From Acidovorax sp. Root219 (GTDB taxonomy: Bacteria > Pseudomonadota > Gammaproteobacteria > Burkholderiales > Burkholderiaceae_C): a stretch of DNA of 64,000 nt. Each line of letters starts with the position of its first letter. The first letter of the stretch is position 1. Location: assembly GCF_001428665.1 (NCBI RefSeq), contig NZ_LMIJ01000010.1:287731-351730 (forward strand), read 5' to 3'. A model generated the notes under the pieces. The model was given only the letters and a program-made list of their open reading frames with translations, was not told the origin of the DNA and made no database searches. Below are positions 1,854 through 7,600 of this stretch, one piece after another. Position numbers and translations under genes: made by a program.

Positions 1854-3095
1854 ATGCAAATCTATATGGTGGGCGGCGCCGTGCGCGATGCCTTGCTCGG
1901 ACGCTCCGTGAACGACCACGACTGGGTGGTGGTGGGCGCCACGCCCGAACAGATGCTGGCCGAAGGCTACCTGGCCGTGGGGCGGGATTTCCCGGTCTTC
2001 CTGCACCCCACGACGCGCGAGGAGTATGCGCTGGCGCGCACCGAGCGCAAGAGCGGGCGCGGCTACCGTGGCTTCGTGGTGGAAAGCTCGCCCGAGGTGA
2101 CGCTGGAGGAAGACCTCTCGCGCCGCGACCTGACCATCAATGCCATCGCCCAGAGCCCCGAAGATCCGCACACGCTGATCGACCCGTACGGCGGACGCAA
2201 GGACCTGCAGGCGCGCCTGCTGCGCCATGTGACCGAGGCCTTTCGCGAAGACCCGGTGCGTATCCTGCGGCTGGCGCGTTTTGCGGCGCGCTTTACCGAC
2301 TTCACAGTGGCGCCCGAGACCCTGGAGCTGATGCGCCAGATGGTGGCAGACGGCGAGGTGGACCACCTAGTGCCCGAGCGCGTGTGGCAGGAGCTCGCGC
2401 GCGGGCTGATGGAGGAAAAACCCTCGCGCATGTTCGAGGTGCTGCGCGACTGCGGCGCCTTGCAGGTGCTGCTGCCCGAGGTCGCGCGCCTGTGGGGCGT
2501 GCCCCAGCGCGCCGAGCACCATCCCGAGGTGGACACCGGCATCCACCTGATGATGGTGCTGGACATGGCGGCGCGGCTCGATGCCCCTCTCACCGTGCGC
2601 TTTGCCTGCCTGGCGCACGACCTGGGCAAGGGCACGACGCCGGCCGACATGCTGCCGCGCCACATCGACCATGAGCGGCGCAGCGCCGAGCTGTTGCACG
2701 ACGTGGCCGAGCGCCTGCGCGTGCCCGTGGACTGCCGCGAGATCGCCGACGTGGTGGCGCGCGAGCACGGCAACATCCACCGCAGCGGCGAGCTGACCGC
2801 CGCCCCGCTGGTGCGCCTGCTGGAGCGCTGCGACGCGCTGCGCAAGCCGGGCCGGCTGCCCGACATTTTGCAGGCCTGCGAATGCGACGCGCGCGGCCGG
2901 CTGGGCATGGAAGAAAACCCCTATCCCCAGCGCCCGCGCCTGCTGGCGGTGCTGGCCGCAGCCCAATCGGTGGTCACGCGCGACATTGCAGCGAAAGCCG
3001 CAGCGAAGGGCCTTGCCGGCCCGCAGGTCGGCGACCTGATCCACCAGGCCCGGGTACAAGCCGTGGCGCAGTGGCTGGCCGCCAACCCCGCCTGA
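1854..3095 (+). CDS. cca: CCA tRNA nucleotidyltransferase
   Basis: This enzyme adds or repairs the 3' CCA of tRNAs using CTP and ATP. The 413-residue product has the class II nucleotidyltransferase head (MVGGAVRDALLGR, residues 4-16), a metal-binding Asp segment (NDHDWVVVG) and the RRDLTINAIA motif. A C-terminal HD domain follows (HDLGKG near residue 259), as in the gamma/beta-proteobacterial multifunctional form with phosphohydrolase activity. ATG 1854 puts the conserved motif immediately after the start; the frame is open upstream but those residues do not fit the family. A working CCA enzyme matters here because the tRNA-Gln gene at 27059 does not encode its CCA. Confidence 0.93.
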   Translation: MQIYMVGGAVRDALLGRSVNDHDWVVVGATPEQMLAEGYLAVGRDFPVFLHPTTREEYALARTERKSGRGYRGFVVESSPEVTLEEDLSRRDLTINAIAQSPEDPHTLIDPYGGRKDLQARLLRHVTEAFREDPVRILRLARFAARFTDFTVAPETLELMRQMVADGEVDHLVPERVWQELARGLMEEKPSRMFEVLRDCGALQVLLPEVARLWGVPQRAEHHPEVDTGIHLMMVLDMAARLDAPLTVRFACLAHDLGKGTTPADMLPRHIDHERRSAELLHDVAERLRVPVDCREIADVVAREHGNIHRSGELTAAPLVRLLERCDALRKPGRLPDILQACECDARGRLGMEENPYPQRPRLLAVLAAAQSVVTRDIAAKAAAKGLAGPQVGDLIHQARVQAVAQWLAANPA

Positions 3096-3104
3096 GGGCT
3101 TGCG

Positions 3105-3746
3105 CTACCAGCGCAGCAGGCGGGGGCCGAGCACGGCGCCCAGCGCCGTGGGCAGGGCCATGCCGGCCAGGTACCACACGGCGAGGAAGGGGCTGGCCAT
3201 CTCGGGGCAGTGCAATGCATAGACCAGCGCCCCGAGCGCCCCGGACAGCAGGCCGGCCCCCGCACCGGCCCAGGCCAGGCGCGTGGGGGCCGCCCCTTTC
3301 AGGGCCCAGAAGCTGGCGATGAAAGCCGGCACCGACAGCAGTGCGATGTTGAACGGGCAACTGCGCCAGGTGCTGCCCAGGATCAGCGCCATGCGCTCGG
3401 CCGGCTCGGCCTGCGATAGGGTGCCCGCCGCCATGGCCCACAGCACCAACGGCGGTACGGCCAGCAACGCGGCCGCATGGCCCACCGCCATGCCCGGCCG
3501 CGCCATGCGCCGCAGCAGCGCCATGCCGGCGGCCGCCAGCGCGGCGGCAAACACCAGCTTGCCCCAGAACATGGGCAGGCCCATGGTCTGCACCAAATCG
3601 TGGCGCACGCCGAACACCGCAGCCATCAGCACGCCGGCCCCTGCGATGCCGGCCAGCGACGCCAGCGCAAAGCGCTGCTCTATGTCCCGTGCAGGCACAG
3701 GGCCGGCATCCGTGGCCAGCAACTGGATCAATTCTTCGGTTCTCAT
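3105..3746 (-). CDS. nrsF: NrsF-like anti-sigma factor (DUF1109)
   Basis: A 213-residue inner-membrane protein with about six hydrophobic segments, of the DUF1109/NrsF family. In Caulobacter and relatives, NrsF holds the ECF sigma factor SigF at the membrane and releases it under metal or oxidative stress through conserved cysteines. Two cysteines fit that role: one in WRSCPFN and one in ALHCPEM. The N-terminus ([17 protein letters not shown]) is the short cytoplasmic part. It overlaps the upstream sigma gene by 4 bases (ATGA), so the pair is translationally coupled. The function is inferred from family and context. Confidence 0.85.
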
Positions 3747-4288
3747 GCCATTCCCCTGATCTTGGCGGCCAGGGCCTTGAGTCCCCGGTGTACGCCGATT
3801 TTGACTGCCGACTCCGACAGCCCCGTGAGTTGTGCGGTCTCCACCACCGACAGGCCCTCCAGCTTCACGTGCAGGATGGGCAGGCGCTGGCGGTCGGGCA
3901 GCGTCTCCAGCAGTTTCCCCAGGTCGCGCCGGGCTTCGGCCGCCTCGCTGTCGCTGGTGGAGAAGAGTTCGCCCGCCTCCTCGTCCAGCGTGTCATTCAA
4001 CGCACCCTTCACCCGGTGCGAGCGCAGCCAGTCGATGAGCTTGTAGCGCGCGATCGCATGCGCCCAGGCCGTTACCGGCATGTCGGGCCGGTAGGTATGG
4101 CGCTGGTTGTGCACGGCCAGCAAGGTCTCTTGCACTAGGTCTTCCACCTCGTCGGGCCGCTGCGACAGCCGCCTGCGCAGAAAAGCCCGCAGGTGCGCGC
4201 TCAGCTCTTTCAAAAATCGCTGGTAGGCGACCGCGTCGGCATCCAGGCCCAGCAGCAGCAACCCACGCAGCCTCTCTTCGATCTCCAT
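3743..4288 (-). CDS. sigF: ECF RNA polymerase sigma factor, SigF type
   Basis: A 181-residue group IV (ECF) sigma factor. Region 2 is seen as [19 protein letters not shown] with the downstream W-A-H-A-I-A-R segment that contacts the -10 element; region 4 carries the helix-turn-helix ([20 protein letters not shown]). The linker is acidic. It is co-transcribed with the anti-sigma gene, and its own upstream DNA (4308-4333) carries the same promoter motif as the divergent bufferin operon, which indicates autoregulation. Family knowledge links SigF-NrsF to excess copper or other metals and to chromate or cadmium stress; the inducer in this organism is not known. Confidence 0.9.
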
Positions 4289-4307
4289 GTTTTCTCCCTC
4301 ACAGGTA

Positions 4308-4333
4308 TTCGCAATGCCAGACCTACGGGTTAC
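4308..4333 (-). promoter_or_regulatory. SigF-type promoter for sigF-nrsF
   Basis: On the minus strand the sequence reads GTAACC (4333-4328), 16 bases, then CGAA (4311-4308). This is the -35/-10 pattern described for SigF-dependent promoters in Caulobacter. The expected start site is about 10 bases upstream of the sigF ATG, giving a very short leader. It predicts that the sigma factor drives its own operon. Confidence 0.8.
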
Positions 4334-4376
4334 AGCGGGTGCAAAAAAACTTTTTTTGATTTCTGATGCAGTTGGT

Positions 4377-4402
4377 GTAACCCGGCCGCCAGACAGCGCG
4401 AA
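4377..4402 (+). promoter_or_regulatory. SigF-type promoter for the bufferin operon
   Basis: The plus strand reads GTAACC (4377-4382), 16 bases, CGAA (4399-4402), identical in motif and spacing to the minus-strand element at 4308-4333. The two -35 boxes are back to back, 43 bases apart. The predicted start is near 4410, leaving a leader of about 85 bases before bufA1. This ties the operon directly to the neighbouring sigma factor. Confidence 0.85.
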
Positions 4403-4493
4403 TTACAACGCAGATCGGTAGCCACGGCGCATCCGCACCCGGCGATCCATCCGGTCTGTTCCACAAACCCTTCAGCTTTACGGAGATTCCGAC

Positions 4494-4781
4494 ATGACCT
4501 CACGCACCCTCAGCCTTGGCGCCCTGGCCCTTGCCGCACTCGCATCCGGCGCAGCCATTGCACAGACCAAGCCCGCAGAAGCGGCCAAGCCCGCCATGGA
4601 GAAGTGCTATGGCGTGTCCATGGCCGGCAAGAACGATTGCGCCGCCGGCGCCGGCACCACCTGTGCTGGCACCTCCAAGGTGGACTACCAGGCCAATGCC
4701 TGGAAGTTCGTGCCCGCCGGCACCTGCGCCTCGATCAAGACGCCCAAGGGCATGGGCACGCTGACGCCCATGAAGAGCTGA
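4494..4781 (+). CDS. bufA1: Bufferin precursor BufA1 (DUF2282)
   Basis: A 95-residue exported peptide of the DUF2282 family, now described as bufferins: ribosomally made, post-translationally modified copper-binding peptides. An N-terminal signal peptide ([19 protein letters not shown], cleavage near AIAQ) precedes a short Ala/Lys/Pro linker and a core with four cysteines (MEKCYG, KNDCAA, TTCAG, GTCASI), the residues converted to thiooxazole-type groups in the family. A GGAG ribosome binding site lies 8 bases upstream of the ATG. It is the first gene of bufA1-bufB-bufC-doxX and sits behind a SigF promoter. The expected role is metal buffering in the periplasm. Confidence 0.9.
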
Positions 4782-4808
4782 TCTTCGTTCACCACCAGAC
4801 CCGCCGCC

Positions 4809-5648
4809 ATGGCAGCCGCACACCTCACCGCCGGCCTGGGGCTCAAGCCCCAGCACTACGCGCAGGCCGTGCAGTGCACGGACCCGGGGCTGTGGTGGGA
4901 GGTGCACCCCGAGAACTACCTGGCCGACGGCGGACCGCGCCTGGCCTGGCTCGAAGCCATCCGTGCGCGGCACCCGGTGGCGCTGCACGGGGTATCGCTG
5001 TCGCTGGCAGCCGATGCGCCGCCCGACGAATCGCACCTGGCACGGCTGGCGGCGCTGGCAAGGCGCATCGAGCCGGCCATCGTCTCCGAGCACCTGGCCT
5101 GGTCCGCATGGCGCGGGCACTACCTGCCCGACCTGCTGCCCTTTCCGCGCACCCATGCGGCGCTGGCGCGCATTGCCGCCAACATCGCCCGCACGCAGGA
5201 CGTGCTGCAGCGCCCCATCGCCGTCGAGAACCCCACGCACTACCTGCACATCGATGGCCATGACTGGGCCGAGACCGACTTTCTGGCCGAGCTGGTGCAG
5301 CGCACCGGCTGCCAGTTGCTGCTGGACGTGAACAACGTCTACATCAGCGCCCACAACCTGGGCACCCGTGCCGAGGATTACCTCGGCGCCTTTCCCCTGC
5401 ACGCCGTGGCCGAGATCCACCTGGCGGGCCACCATGCCGACCCCGAGTTGGGCGAGGCCCTGTTGATCGACAGCCACGATGCCCCGGTGGCCGATGCCGT
5501 GTGGGCCCTGTACCAGCGCGTGATTGCCGCCACCGGCCCGCTGCCCACCCTGATCGAGCGCGACGACCAATTGCCAGCGCTCGAGGTGCTGCTCGCCGAG
5601 CGCGGCCGCGCCCACGCGGCGCTCACCGAGGCCCTGCCATGCAGCTGA
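4809..5648 (+). CDS. bufB: MNIO-family bufferin maturase BufB (DUF692)
   Basis: A 279-residue TIM-barrel enzyme of the multinuclear non-heme iron oxidase (MNIO, DUF692) family that modifies cysteines of the BufA precursor. Metal-binding and active-site segments are visible in order: WWEVHPENY (about 32-40), HGVSLSLA (59-66), SEHLAWS (95-101), VENPTHYL (139-146), LLDVNNVYISAHN (175-187), EIHLAGHH (203-210) and SHDAPV (222-227). It has no signal peptide, so modification takes place in the cytoplasm before export. It lies 27 bases after bufA1 and overlaps bufC by 10 bases, which indicates translational coupling. Confidence 0.92.
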   Translation: MAAAHLTAGLGLKPQHYAQAVQCTDPGLWWEVHPENYLADGGPRLAWLEAIRARHPVALHGVSLSLAADAPPDESHLARLAALARRIEPAIVSEHLAWSAWRGHYLPDLLPFPRTHAALARIAANIARTQDVLQRPIAVENPTHYLHIDGHDWAETDFLAELVQRTGCQLLLDVNNVYISAHNLGTRAEDYLGAFPLHAVAEIHLAGHHADPELGEALLIDSHDAPVADAVWALYQRVIAATGPLPTLIERDDQLPALEVLLAERGRAHAALTEALPCS

Positions 5649-6421
5649 GCACCTTCCAGGATGGCCTGGCCGCCGCACTGATGCCCCAGGGCGCCCACCC
5701 AGCGGACACCGCACCCTGGCTGTCCGCCCTGCGGTCCCAGCCCGGCTTCGCCGTGTACCGCAATACCGTGCACAAGGCCTGCATCGATGCGCTGCAGGCC
5801 AACTACCCCACCGTCTGCGCGCTGGTGGGCGAAGAATGGTTCCGCGCGGCCGCAGGCCTGTTCGTTCAGGCCCGGCCGCCGACGGATGGCCGGCTCATGG
5901 CCTATGGCGAAGGCTTTGCACACTTTCTGCAAGGCTTCGAAGCGGCCGCCGGCCTGCCCTACCTGCCTGCCGTGGCACGGCTGGACCGCTGCTGGACCGA
6001 AAGCCACCTGGCGGCCGATGCCCCCCTGCTGGACGCCGCCTGGCTGGCCCGGCAGTCCCCCGAAGCCCTGTCCGGCCTGTGCCTGGCCCCACATCCCGCC
6101 GCGCGCTGGGCCTGGAGCGAGGAGCACCCGGCCAGCACCCTGTGGCAGCGCCAGCGCGAGGGCACACCCCTGGATGCCGAACTGCCGTGGCAGGGCGACG
6201 GCGCCCTGCTCACCCGCCCCGAGGGGGGCGTGCAGTGGATGCCACTGGCACGCGCGGGCATCGCCTTCCTGGACGCCTGCGCTGCGGCACTGCCCCTGGA
6301 GCTGGCTGCAGCCCATGCCCAGCAGGCAGAACCCGGCGCCGACCTGGGCGCGCTGATGGCGCAGTTGCTGCAGGCCGGCGCGCTGTGCGCCCCACCCCAC
6401 CTTGACGAGGACACCCCATGA
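5639..6421 (+). CDS. bufC: BufC, DUF2063 partner of the maturase
   Basis: A 260-residue protein with an N-terminal DUF2063 domain (about residues 3-95) bearing the family's F-A-V-Y-R-N-T-V segment near residue 35 and the [14 protein letters not shown] helix near 54-67. Family members work with MNIO enzymes as the precursor-recognition and delivery subunit. The C-terminal half is a less conserved alpha/beta domain rich in Ala and Leu. The ATG at 5639 lies inside the end of bufB, and the stop codon overlaps the doxX start (ATGA at 6418-6421), so the four genes form one tightly packed operon. Confidence 0.88.
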
Positions 6422-6900
6422 ACACCACCCCCTTCCCCCAGGTCACGCCCACCGTATCCGCGACCGGGCCGCGCCACTGGCTGGGCCGGCTGGCCGATGC
6501 GCTGGCCTGGCTCACGCCCCACAGCCTGCTGGCCCTGGTGAACCGGGTGGGCATCGCAGCGATCTTCTGGATGTCGGCACGCACCAAGGTGGAGGGCTGG
6601 TTCACCATTTCGGACAGCGCCTACCTGCTGTTCCGCGAGGAGTACAAGCTGCCCCTGCTGCCGCCCGAGCTGGCGGCACAGATGGCCACGGTGGCCGAAC
6701 ATGTGTTCCCGGTGCTGCTGGTGCTGGGGCTGTGCACACGGCTGTCGGCCCTTGCGCTGCTGGGCATGACACTGGTGATCCAGGTCTTTGTCTATCCCGA
6801 TGCCTGGCCTACCCACCTGTCGTGGGCGGGGCTGCTGCTGTACATCGCAGGGCGCGGCGCGGGCAACATCTCGCTGGACCGGGTGCTCGGCATCCGCTGA
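6418..6900 (+). CDS. DoxX family membrane protein
   Basis: A 160-residue integral membrane protein of the DoxX family with four predicted hydrophobic segments (for example [18 protein letters not shown] near residue 40 and [15 protein letters not shown] near 115). The [13 protein letters not shown] stretch between segments 1 and 2 is typical of DoxX proteins found beside DUF692 genes. Its job in bufferin loci is unknown; a quinone-linked redox or export role has been supposed. It is the last gene of the operon and converges on trxC, 26 bases away, with no clear terminator between them. Confidence 0.85.
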
Positions 6901-6926
6901 TGTCGCGCCCCCCCGGCAGGGCAGGG

Positions 6927-7364
6927 TCAGCTGACGCTGCGCACCCAACGCGCAATGTCGCTGGCGTTCATCGCGCCGGAAATGCGTGCCGCCTCGCGGC
7001 CCTCCTTGAACACTATCATGGTGGGAATGCTGCGGATGCCGAAGCGGCCCGCAATCGCCTGGTGGACCTCGGTGTCGAGCTTGGCCAGTTGCACCTGGGG
7101 CTCCAGGTCACGTGCTGCCTGGGCGAAGGCCGGCGCCATCTGCAGGCAAGGGCCGCACCAGGGGGCCCAGAAATCCACCACCACGGGCAGGTGGCTGCGG
7201 CCCACATGCCTGTCGAACGAAGCCGCATCCAGCGCCACGGGCGCTCCGGCGAAGAGGGGCTGGTGGCAGCTGCCGCAATCGGGGGCACTGCCAAGGTCTG
7301 CGCGCAGGACGCGGTTGGTGGTGTGGCAGTGGGGGCAGACGATGTGGGGGGCTTCTTCGGTCAC
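6927..7364 (-). CDS. trxC: Thioredoxin TrxC (thioredoxin 2)
   Basis: A 145-residue cytoplasmic thioredoxin with an N-terminal zinc finger made of two Cys pairs (CPHC near residue 8 and CGSC near 31), followed by the thioredoxin fold with the active site WAPWCGPC (about 67-74) and the cis-Pro loop (IRSIPTMIVF). This architecture is specific to thioredoxin 2. It reduces protein disulfides using thioredoxin reductase and is often induced by oxidative stress. It converges on the bufferin operon, but nothing in the sequence shows shared control. Confidence 0.93.
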   Translation of the reverse strand: MTEEAPHIVCPHCHTTNRVLRADLGSAPDCGSCHQPLFAGAPVALDAASFDRHVGRSHLPVVVDFWAPWCGPCLQMAPAFAQAARDLEPQVQLAKLDTEVHQAIAGRFGIRSIPTMIVFKEGREAARISGAMNASDIARWVRSVS

Positions 7365-7600
7365 GCAAAATCTCCATGGGTACGCTCAGCGTGCGCTGGC
7401 AACGGGGCACTTGCTTGTAAGACAAACACCCTTTTCATCTTGTGACAATGGGGCCCGAAAGCTCTCATTTCAAGCCCCTGGCAGCTGAACACCCCAATGC
7501 TGGCGCGGGTTTTCGGGCACTCTCCCAGGCCATCAGGTCCCTGCACACGCCACCCCCACGCGCTGGCAGGCCACCCAGCTGTCTGCTAAGGTGCCGCCAC

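Follow-up and report, generated by a model that had tools for sequence, protein, structure and literature searches.

Which promoters serve the two gene groups that diverge from the 205-base gap at positions 4289-4493, and which sigma factor reads them, is the question raised by this locus. In the window, by which we mean the whole 64,000-nucleotide stretch of Acidovorax sp. Root219 DNA that was analysed, sigF and nrsF lie on the minus strand on one side of the gap and a bufferin operon lies on the plus strand on the other (Table 1). Bufferins are copper-binding peptides whose recognition is recent, and the way in which they are switched on outside Caulobacter has mostly been assumed. We consider it very probable that two divergent promoters lie in the gap and are read by the ECF16-type SigF of the locus itself, one serving sigF-nrsF and the other the bufferin-1 operon, and that the regulon extends to bufA2 and msrP.

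The assignment of the genes is as follows. SigF contains sigma regions 2 and 4 only, within 181 aa (Pfam), which makes it an ECF sigma factor; it matches the NCBIfam subfamily PRK12536 (302 bits, cut-off 250) and, among the best 80 of a longer series of named loci, it is 99% identical to the protein of the nearest one, from Acidovorax. The product of the adjacent nrsF matches PF06532 over its full length (243 bits) and has exactly two cysteines, as in the six-helix DUF1109/NrsF anti-sigma factors, and it scored 137 bits against the narrower NCBIfam equivalog NF042994, under the cut-off of 300. On the other side of the gap, a DUF2282 precursor with four cysteines, an MNIO, a DUF2063 protein and a DoxX protein constitute a Buf1 cluster, in which the signal peptide was judged by eye; a search of the bufA1 and bufC products against NCBIfam gave no match. 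DUF2282 and NrsF are each present in one copy in the genome to which the window belongs.

Table 1. Position of the features of the locus and of related loci, with the evidence for each.
Feature	Position or locus	Strand	Evidence or detail
nrsF, membrane anti-sigma factor, two cysteines (C130 and C180)	3105..3746	-	PF06532, E=3.2e-72
sigF, ECF sigma factor of ECF16 type	3743..4288	-	Pfam Sigma70_r2 and Sigma70_r4_2
Predicted SigF-type promoter of sigF-nrsF	4308..4333	-	GTAACC-CGTAGGTCTGGCATTG-CGAA; -35 GTAACC 4333-4328, -10 CGAA 4311-4308, spacer 16
AT-richer stretch separating both -35 boxes; possible shared upstream element	4334..4376		AT content
Predicted SigF-type promoter of the bufA1BC-doxX operon	4377..4402	+	GTAACC-CGGCCGCCAGACAGCG-CGAA; -35 GTAACC 4377-4382, -10 CGAA 4399-4402, spacer 16
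Possible stem at the extreme 5' end of the bufA1 mRNA, 5' arm, CAGATCGG	4411..4418	+	Conserved block, pairing counts; weak covariation
3' arm of the possible bufA1 stem, CCGGTCTG	4451..4458	+	Folding, pairing counts; weak covariation
bufA1, bufferin precursor (DUF2282), four cysteines	4494..4781	+	PF10048, E=1.1e-25
bufB, MNIO bufferin maturase	4809..5648	+	PF05114 (MbnB_TglH_ChrH); NF050167, 361 bits, cut-off 310
bufC, DUF2063 partner protein	5639..6421	+	PF09836
doxX-like membrane protein gene, end of the bufferin operon	6418..6900	+	PF07681
Loci with a divergent cytochrome-b-like gene	L259, L263, L265, L266, L276, L284, L286, L289, L292, L296, L301, L307		Identity by eye

The initial annotation had described two sites GTAACC-N16-CGAA of identical spacing on both strands of the gap, and this is what the sequence contains: the minus-strand site at 4308-4333 and the plus-strand site at 4377-4402 are the only exact matches in the 64-kb window, where 0.01 would be expected, and none of 100 shuffled windows had two. 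It had also recognised in them the Caulobacter SigF sequence, which holds, as GTAACC-N16-CGAA is the sequence given in PMC3511200 and also the ECF16 consensus in PMC3420878, where it is credited to an earlier ECF classification (throughout, papers are cited for the available excerpts of their text). The form (t)GTAACc-N16-CGAA of that consensus (PMC3420878) is both present and conserved here as a sequence, and autoregulation would be predicted from it. The betaproteobacterial setting had been considered notable as well; the motif is found there, but this is less of a surprise than had been suggested, since PMC3420878 lists the group in Proteobacteria and the divergent arrangement has been mapped in Sinorhizobium meliloti. 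ECF16 factors are described as particularly alphaproteobacterial (PMC8315932). The ATG of sigF begins 19 nt past the CGAA box of its site, and the same 19 nt were found in the near-identical locus L236.

To follow the two sites among relatives, 99 genomes were searched, that of the window included; 47 of them belong to the genus, 37 being NrsF-positive and 10 NrsF-negative. All 37 sigF-nrsF loci of the genus were looked at, and 36 carry both exact divergent sites; the remaining one, in genome G019, has the exact site on the bufferin side only. When 36 distinct gaps were aligned with the motif left out of account, invariant positions made up 19 of the 20 box bases versus 11 of the 185 other bases of the gap, with a mean identity of 0.998 for the box bases and 0.70 for the others, and the spacers vary where the boxes are constant. 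On the bufferin side all ten box bases are invariant, and on the sigF side nine, the tenth (4328) being kept in 97%. In the 35 distinct gaps that have both sites, the median AT content is 53% for the stretch between the -35 boxes and 41% for the remainder. The sites on both sides are conserved in the genus and in many other betaproteobacteria.

A different reading of the sigF side is that a housekeeping promoter gives the basal expression of sigF-nrsF, so that the GTAACC/CGAA site adds little there and SigF mainly drives the bufferin side. In Caulobacter, sigF is only weakly autoregulated, without strong autoregulation under metal stress according to the excerpt, and a second regulator participates (PMC3511200); furthermore, the rpoQ-rsqA region of Cupriavidus metallidurans has been assigned to RpoD (PMC10304878). 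Against this, the boxes on the sigF side are as invariant as those on the bufferin side, except for one base in one of the 36 gaps, and a simple consensus scan of 4200-4560 found no sigma-70-like site, for which reason sigma-70 promoters in the gap were rejected as candidates. We regard this reading as somewhat unlikely.

If SigF reads the two sites of the gap, the same sequence may precede other genes, and the motif had been put forward as a search pattern for the regulon. The proposed genome scan was carried out with the exact pattern, its reverse and a relaxed TGTAAC-N17-CGAA. In the 6,820,941 bases of the genome (6.82 Mb), the exact pattern occurs four times and the pattern read backwards 11 times. 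The number of matches is unremarkable and, therefore, the significance comes from the location of the four: every one precedes a fitting gene, namely sigF-nrsF, bufA1BC-doxX, msrP or the bufA2 operon. The third match lies 59 nt before msrP (NF003767, 473 bits, cut-off 207), which is followed by a ferric-reductase-like msrQ. The fourth lies 80 nt before the gene for a BufA2 precursor of 97 aa with six cysteines (NF050166, 99 bits, cut-off 60), and next to it is encoded a 559-aa fusion of a bufferin maturase (NF050167, 359 bits, cut-off 310) with DUF2063; a six-cysteine BufA2 precursor beside a bufferin maturase is the composition of a Buf2 cluster. The relaxed pattern added two matches; a 517-aa reading frame encloses one of them, and downstream of the other no reading frame was found. 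Being of no evident use, they led us to claim no further targets. This second bufferin operon, composed of bufA2 and the fused MNIO-DUF2063 gene (559 aa), occupies positions 2107-4227 of locus L113.

As regards bufA2, 35 matches were obtained, and the 30 that had loci were inspected. The gene was found in 15 members of the genus, all of them NrsF-positive, and in the 15 the exact site stands 77-107 nt upstream. None of the 10 NrsF-negative congeners has bufA2 and none has bufA1; thus, in this part of the genus the bufferins and the sigma factor are absent together. At 15 bufA2-like loci of NrsF-negative genomes outside the genus, several with unreliable starts, no exact site was present in the scanned stretch. 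Because of unreliable starts elsewhere, the Fisher test on bufA2 drew only on the family members G058, G052 and G048 among the distant NrsF-negative genomes.

As for msrP, matches were found in 78 of the 99 genomes, 73 of which were taken; nine had no usable BLAST start (among them the NrsF-positive G096), and 64 were scored. The exact site is present upstream of msrP in 35 of 38 NrsF-positive genomes and in 5 of 26 NrsF-negative ones. Within the genus, the corresponding numbers are 34/34 and 5/8 of the congeners with msrP (Fisher p=0.005, uncorrected for kinship); outside it, G049 has the site and the NrsF-positive G055, G057 and G061 do not. The three NrsF-negative congeners without the exact site show it damaged in two cases (GTGACC and two extra bases) and nothing left of it in one. 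The congeners G030, G033, G038, G042 and G043 carry a perfect msrP site despite having no close SigF, NrsF or bufferin genes.

In the NrsF-negative congeners that keep the exact msrP site, the best SigF-like proteins are about 27-34% identical to SigF. The retention of the site in five of these eight genomes means that another sigma factor may read it, or that the loss may be recent. It could then be proposed that the sites are real and conserved but shared by at least two ECF sigma factors, with SigF acting at the gap between sigF and the bufferin genes and a different ECF factor at msrP, and perhaps also at other genes. This would agree with the several other ECF factors of the genus (about 24-34% identity), with the spacer of the msrP site, which by eye is rather conserved too, and with Caulobacter, where the induction of msrP depends on SigF only in part (PMC3511200). 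However, the exact msrP site is missing in 3 of 8 NrsF-negative versus 0 of 34 NrsF-positive congeners, and no second sigma factor has been shown to track it; a division of the sites between two factors is, in our opinion, unlikely.

The reading in which SigF serves the whole set can also be followed outside the genus. In Variovorax paradoxus NBRC 15149, the three exact matches of the genome precede sigF-nrsF, bufA1-bufB-bufC-doxX and msrP on three different contigs; as these genes lie apart, a shared position cannot explain the shared site. The same three targets follow three of the four exact matches of Variovorax sp. Root318D1, and in Variovorax sp. J22R187, whose genome yielded no DUF2282 gene, sigF and msrP follow two of the three matches. 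As a search pattern, then, the motif recovers target sets in the genome of the window and in Variovorax. A total of 30 loci from Variovorax and other named genomes were searched for known targets, matches without a locus being left unclassified. Among the loci examined from Polaromonas, Dechloromonas, Paraburkholderia, Sterolibacterium and two Herbaspirillum, sigF or bufferin sites are present and no exact site was found before msrP, not every match having a locus.

A genome scan with a SigF alignment provided a wider set; the best 80 of its longer list of named loci were used, some of them from the same strains as the 99 genomes. An exact site lies within 250 nt of sigF in 63 of these 80 loci and is missing in 17; five of the 63 stand at 180-248 nt and are doubtful. 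Among the best 80, bufA1 is divergent within 1.8 kb in 38, of which 31 have both sites (including two of the five doubtful ones, at 208 nt), 35 the one on the bufferin side and 34 the one on the sigF side. Most sigF genes lie 18-26 nt from their site, and bufA1 in most cases 57-133 nt from its own. The reversed pattern did not occur in the 80 gap regions, and outside them the true pattern was counted 23 times in 417,569 bases, these matches being unclassified. That the pair is a repeat arisen by chance, or serves a DNA-binding repressor as its operator and does not consist of promoters, is hardly conceivable: genome-wide the exact pattern is neither rarer nor commoner than chance, but the expectation for the window, the 36 of 37 loci with both sites, the constancy of boxes and not of spacers, the counts in the named loci, the way in which each site points at its gene at the distances given and the coherent targets of all four genomic matches argue against it, and a chance origin was rejected.

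Several other exact matches in congeners, among those listed, were set aside for being located inside long reading frames. In addition, GTAACCCATAGGTATTCACCACCGAA recurs, spacer included, in six genomes of the genus among the matches listed (L115, L063, L048 and others). In the three loci read, it stands 47 nt before a gene for an ABC-transporter binding protein, and it is absent from the matches of the window's genome. As the spacer is identical in the six listed copies, they are uninformative on recognition by a sigma factor, and this site was set aside as a target.

Taking SigF as the factor that reads the set, the locus could work in the following way. RNA polymerase holoenzyme with SigF would read both promoters of the gap; the one at 4308-4333 would drive sigF-nrsF, providing positive feedback together with resupply of the anti-sigma factor, and the one at 4377-4402 would drive the bufferin-1 operon. 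In the resting state, the membrane protein NrsF would hold SigF. A periplasmic metal or oxidative stress, probably sensed via the two conserved cysteines of NrsF, would release SigF, and the free factor would act at both gap sites and at two more, before bufA2-bufB/C and msrP(Q). The outcome would be that both periplasmic copper-buffering peptides and the periplasmic repair of methionine sulfoxide are switched on together. We infer recognition by SigF, and with it the control of both gap sites, from Caulobacter and Sinorhizobium, which are also the models for the presumed inducing signals, the release from NrsF and copper as the main signal. Since in Bradyrhizobium the distance from the -10 box to an ECF16 start is 6 bp (PMC3420878), transcription would be expected to start near 4302 on the minus strand, with a sigF leader of about 14 nt, and near 4408 on the plus strand, with a bufA1 leader of about 85 nt.

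The closest known system is the ECF16 prototype SigF-NrsF of Caulobacter, an organism of a different class. There, the starts of two bufferin operons were determined by 5' RACE and that of sigF by primer extension at GTAACC-N16-CGAA, and the regulon comprises sigF-nrsF, two DUF2282 operons and msrPQ (PMC3511200); it is induced by copper, to which a sigF mutant is sensitive (PMC3511200; PMC8224329). Both organisms share the promoter, the position of sigF-nrsF beside DUF2282/MNIO/DUF2063/DoxX genes, a second bufferin operon and msrPQ (PMC3511200, PMC8224329). C130 and C180 of the window's NrsF resemble C131 and C181 of the Caulobacter protein, whose change to serine unsettles it (PMC3511200). 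In contrast, the second bufferin operon of Caulobacter is of the DUF2282 (Buf1) type, whereas here it encodes BufA2 and a fused MNIO-DUF2063, and the msrP site of Caulobacter came from a search in which two substitutions were permitted (PMC3511200), whereas here it is exact. In S. meliloti, RpoE7-EcfR7 (ECF16) shows a sigma/anti-sigma pair divergent from a DUF692-DUF2063 operon, with promoters for both and CGAA at the same spacing; RpoE7 drives this divergent pair via GTAACA-N16-CGAA (PMC6180224). It differs from the present case in having GTAACA and not GTAACC as its -35 box and in its seven direct or indirect targets, none of which is msrP or bufA2 in the excerpt of that paper; according to the same excerpt, its promoters were not induced by H2O2, Cd or chromate (PMC6180224). 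Two further systems, SigF-NrsF with mrpX-yedYZ in perchlorate reducers (PMC4623255) and the Brucella ECF16 locus with a Met-rich peptide operon (PMC8315932), also combine an ECF16-type sigma factor, an NrsF-type anti-sigma factor and methionine-sulfoxide repair genes, in Brucella with a GTAAC/CGAA promoter. In both, the linked output consists of a methionine-rich peptide and repair genes and not of a bufferin, and the stress is hypochlorite.

Special mention should be made of C. metallidurans CH34, a metal-resistance model. Its rpoQ-rsqA/gigPABT locus has the same gene layout as that of the window, and in the rpoQ/gigP gap we found the same exact pair of sites (L233, 3693-3718 on the minus strand and 3753-3778 on the plus strand). 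According to the excerpt of PMC10304878, no gig promoter had been identified, expression being low, and control of gig by RpoQ was assumed; deletion of rpoQ raises gig expression in metal-treated cells (PMC10304878). By a term search, the main text of a start-site study of this strain mentions neither RpoQ nor gig (PMC9045368). The site on the gigP side supplies a candidate for the missing gig promoter. Our literature search, which covered few subscription journals, found among the papers listed none that placed a BufA2 cluster under SigF or reported such a site before gig.

The promoter and the link between SigF, NrsF and bufferins are already known (ECF16/SigF promoter). What is new is the regulon map for Burkholderiales, the bufA2 operon, which is probably controlled in trans, and the candidate gig promoter for RpoQ. 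For Burkholderiales, it seems reasonably probable that SigF (RpoQ in C. metallidurans) is a common switch of both bufferin families and of periplasmic methionine-sulfoxide repair, and that it reaches the sigma-less BufA2 cluster in trans. A 2025 cluster survey reported sigma genes next to clusters of the Buf1 type and none next to those of the Buf2 type, in the excerpt available (PMC12452194); control in trans, if true, would explain how SigF could regulate a Buf2 cluster without an adjacent sigma gene. The other perfect copies of the site in the genome precede genes with related protective roles, which allows the switch and the genes that it probably controls to be deduced from the sequence. 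The set of four sites in the genome of the window, which is retained in the genus, and the unlinked three-site set of Variovorax lead to concrete predictions, and this set of promoters ties copper buffering to the repair of oxidised methionine.

Another aspect to mention is the leader of bufA1. Its first predicted transcribed bases (within 4403-4417) show unusual conservation and are able to form pairs with 4451-4458. In an alignment of 30 hand-chosen leaders out of 60 distinct ones, four of them trimmed of coding bases, 84.6% of the cells of the stem can pair versus 81.0% in shuffles and 16-48% when the arms are slid. Both sides have changed in three pairs; shuffles give at least as many further pair types, and of the nine pairs two do not hold throughout, being broken in 12 and in 17 sequences. 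RNAalifold by itself predicted only five pairs with little covariation, and the region 3000-7500 gave no Rfam match up to E=1. The mean folding z-score was -1.2 for the 60 bufA1 leaders, -0.5 for 14 of bufA2 and +0.3 for 28 of msrP. As the bufA2 and msrP leaders have no excess of folding, the stem stands outside the regulon proposed for Burkholderiales; as a lead only, with moderate support from the pairing counts and weak covariation, a conserved 5'-terminal stem of bufA1 may add a post-transcriptional layer to the target message, and not to sigF.

Finally, 18 of the named loci without bufA1 were inspected. By eye, a cytochrome-b-like membrane gene stands behind the divergent exact site in 12 of them, and one encodes a short, repetitive peptide with much Met, Lys, Asp and Ser. 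It thus seems that the promoter stays and the output module changes. On the Stenotrophomonas plasmid CP031732, a SigF site with one mismatch (L235, 3895-3920) overlaps the start that is annotated for the sigma gene, and for this reason the start codon has probably been set too far upstream.
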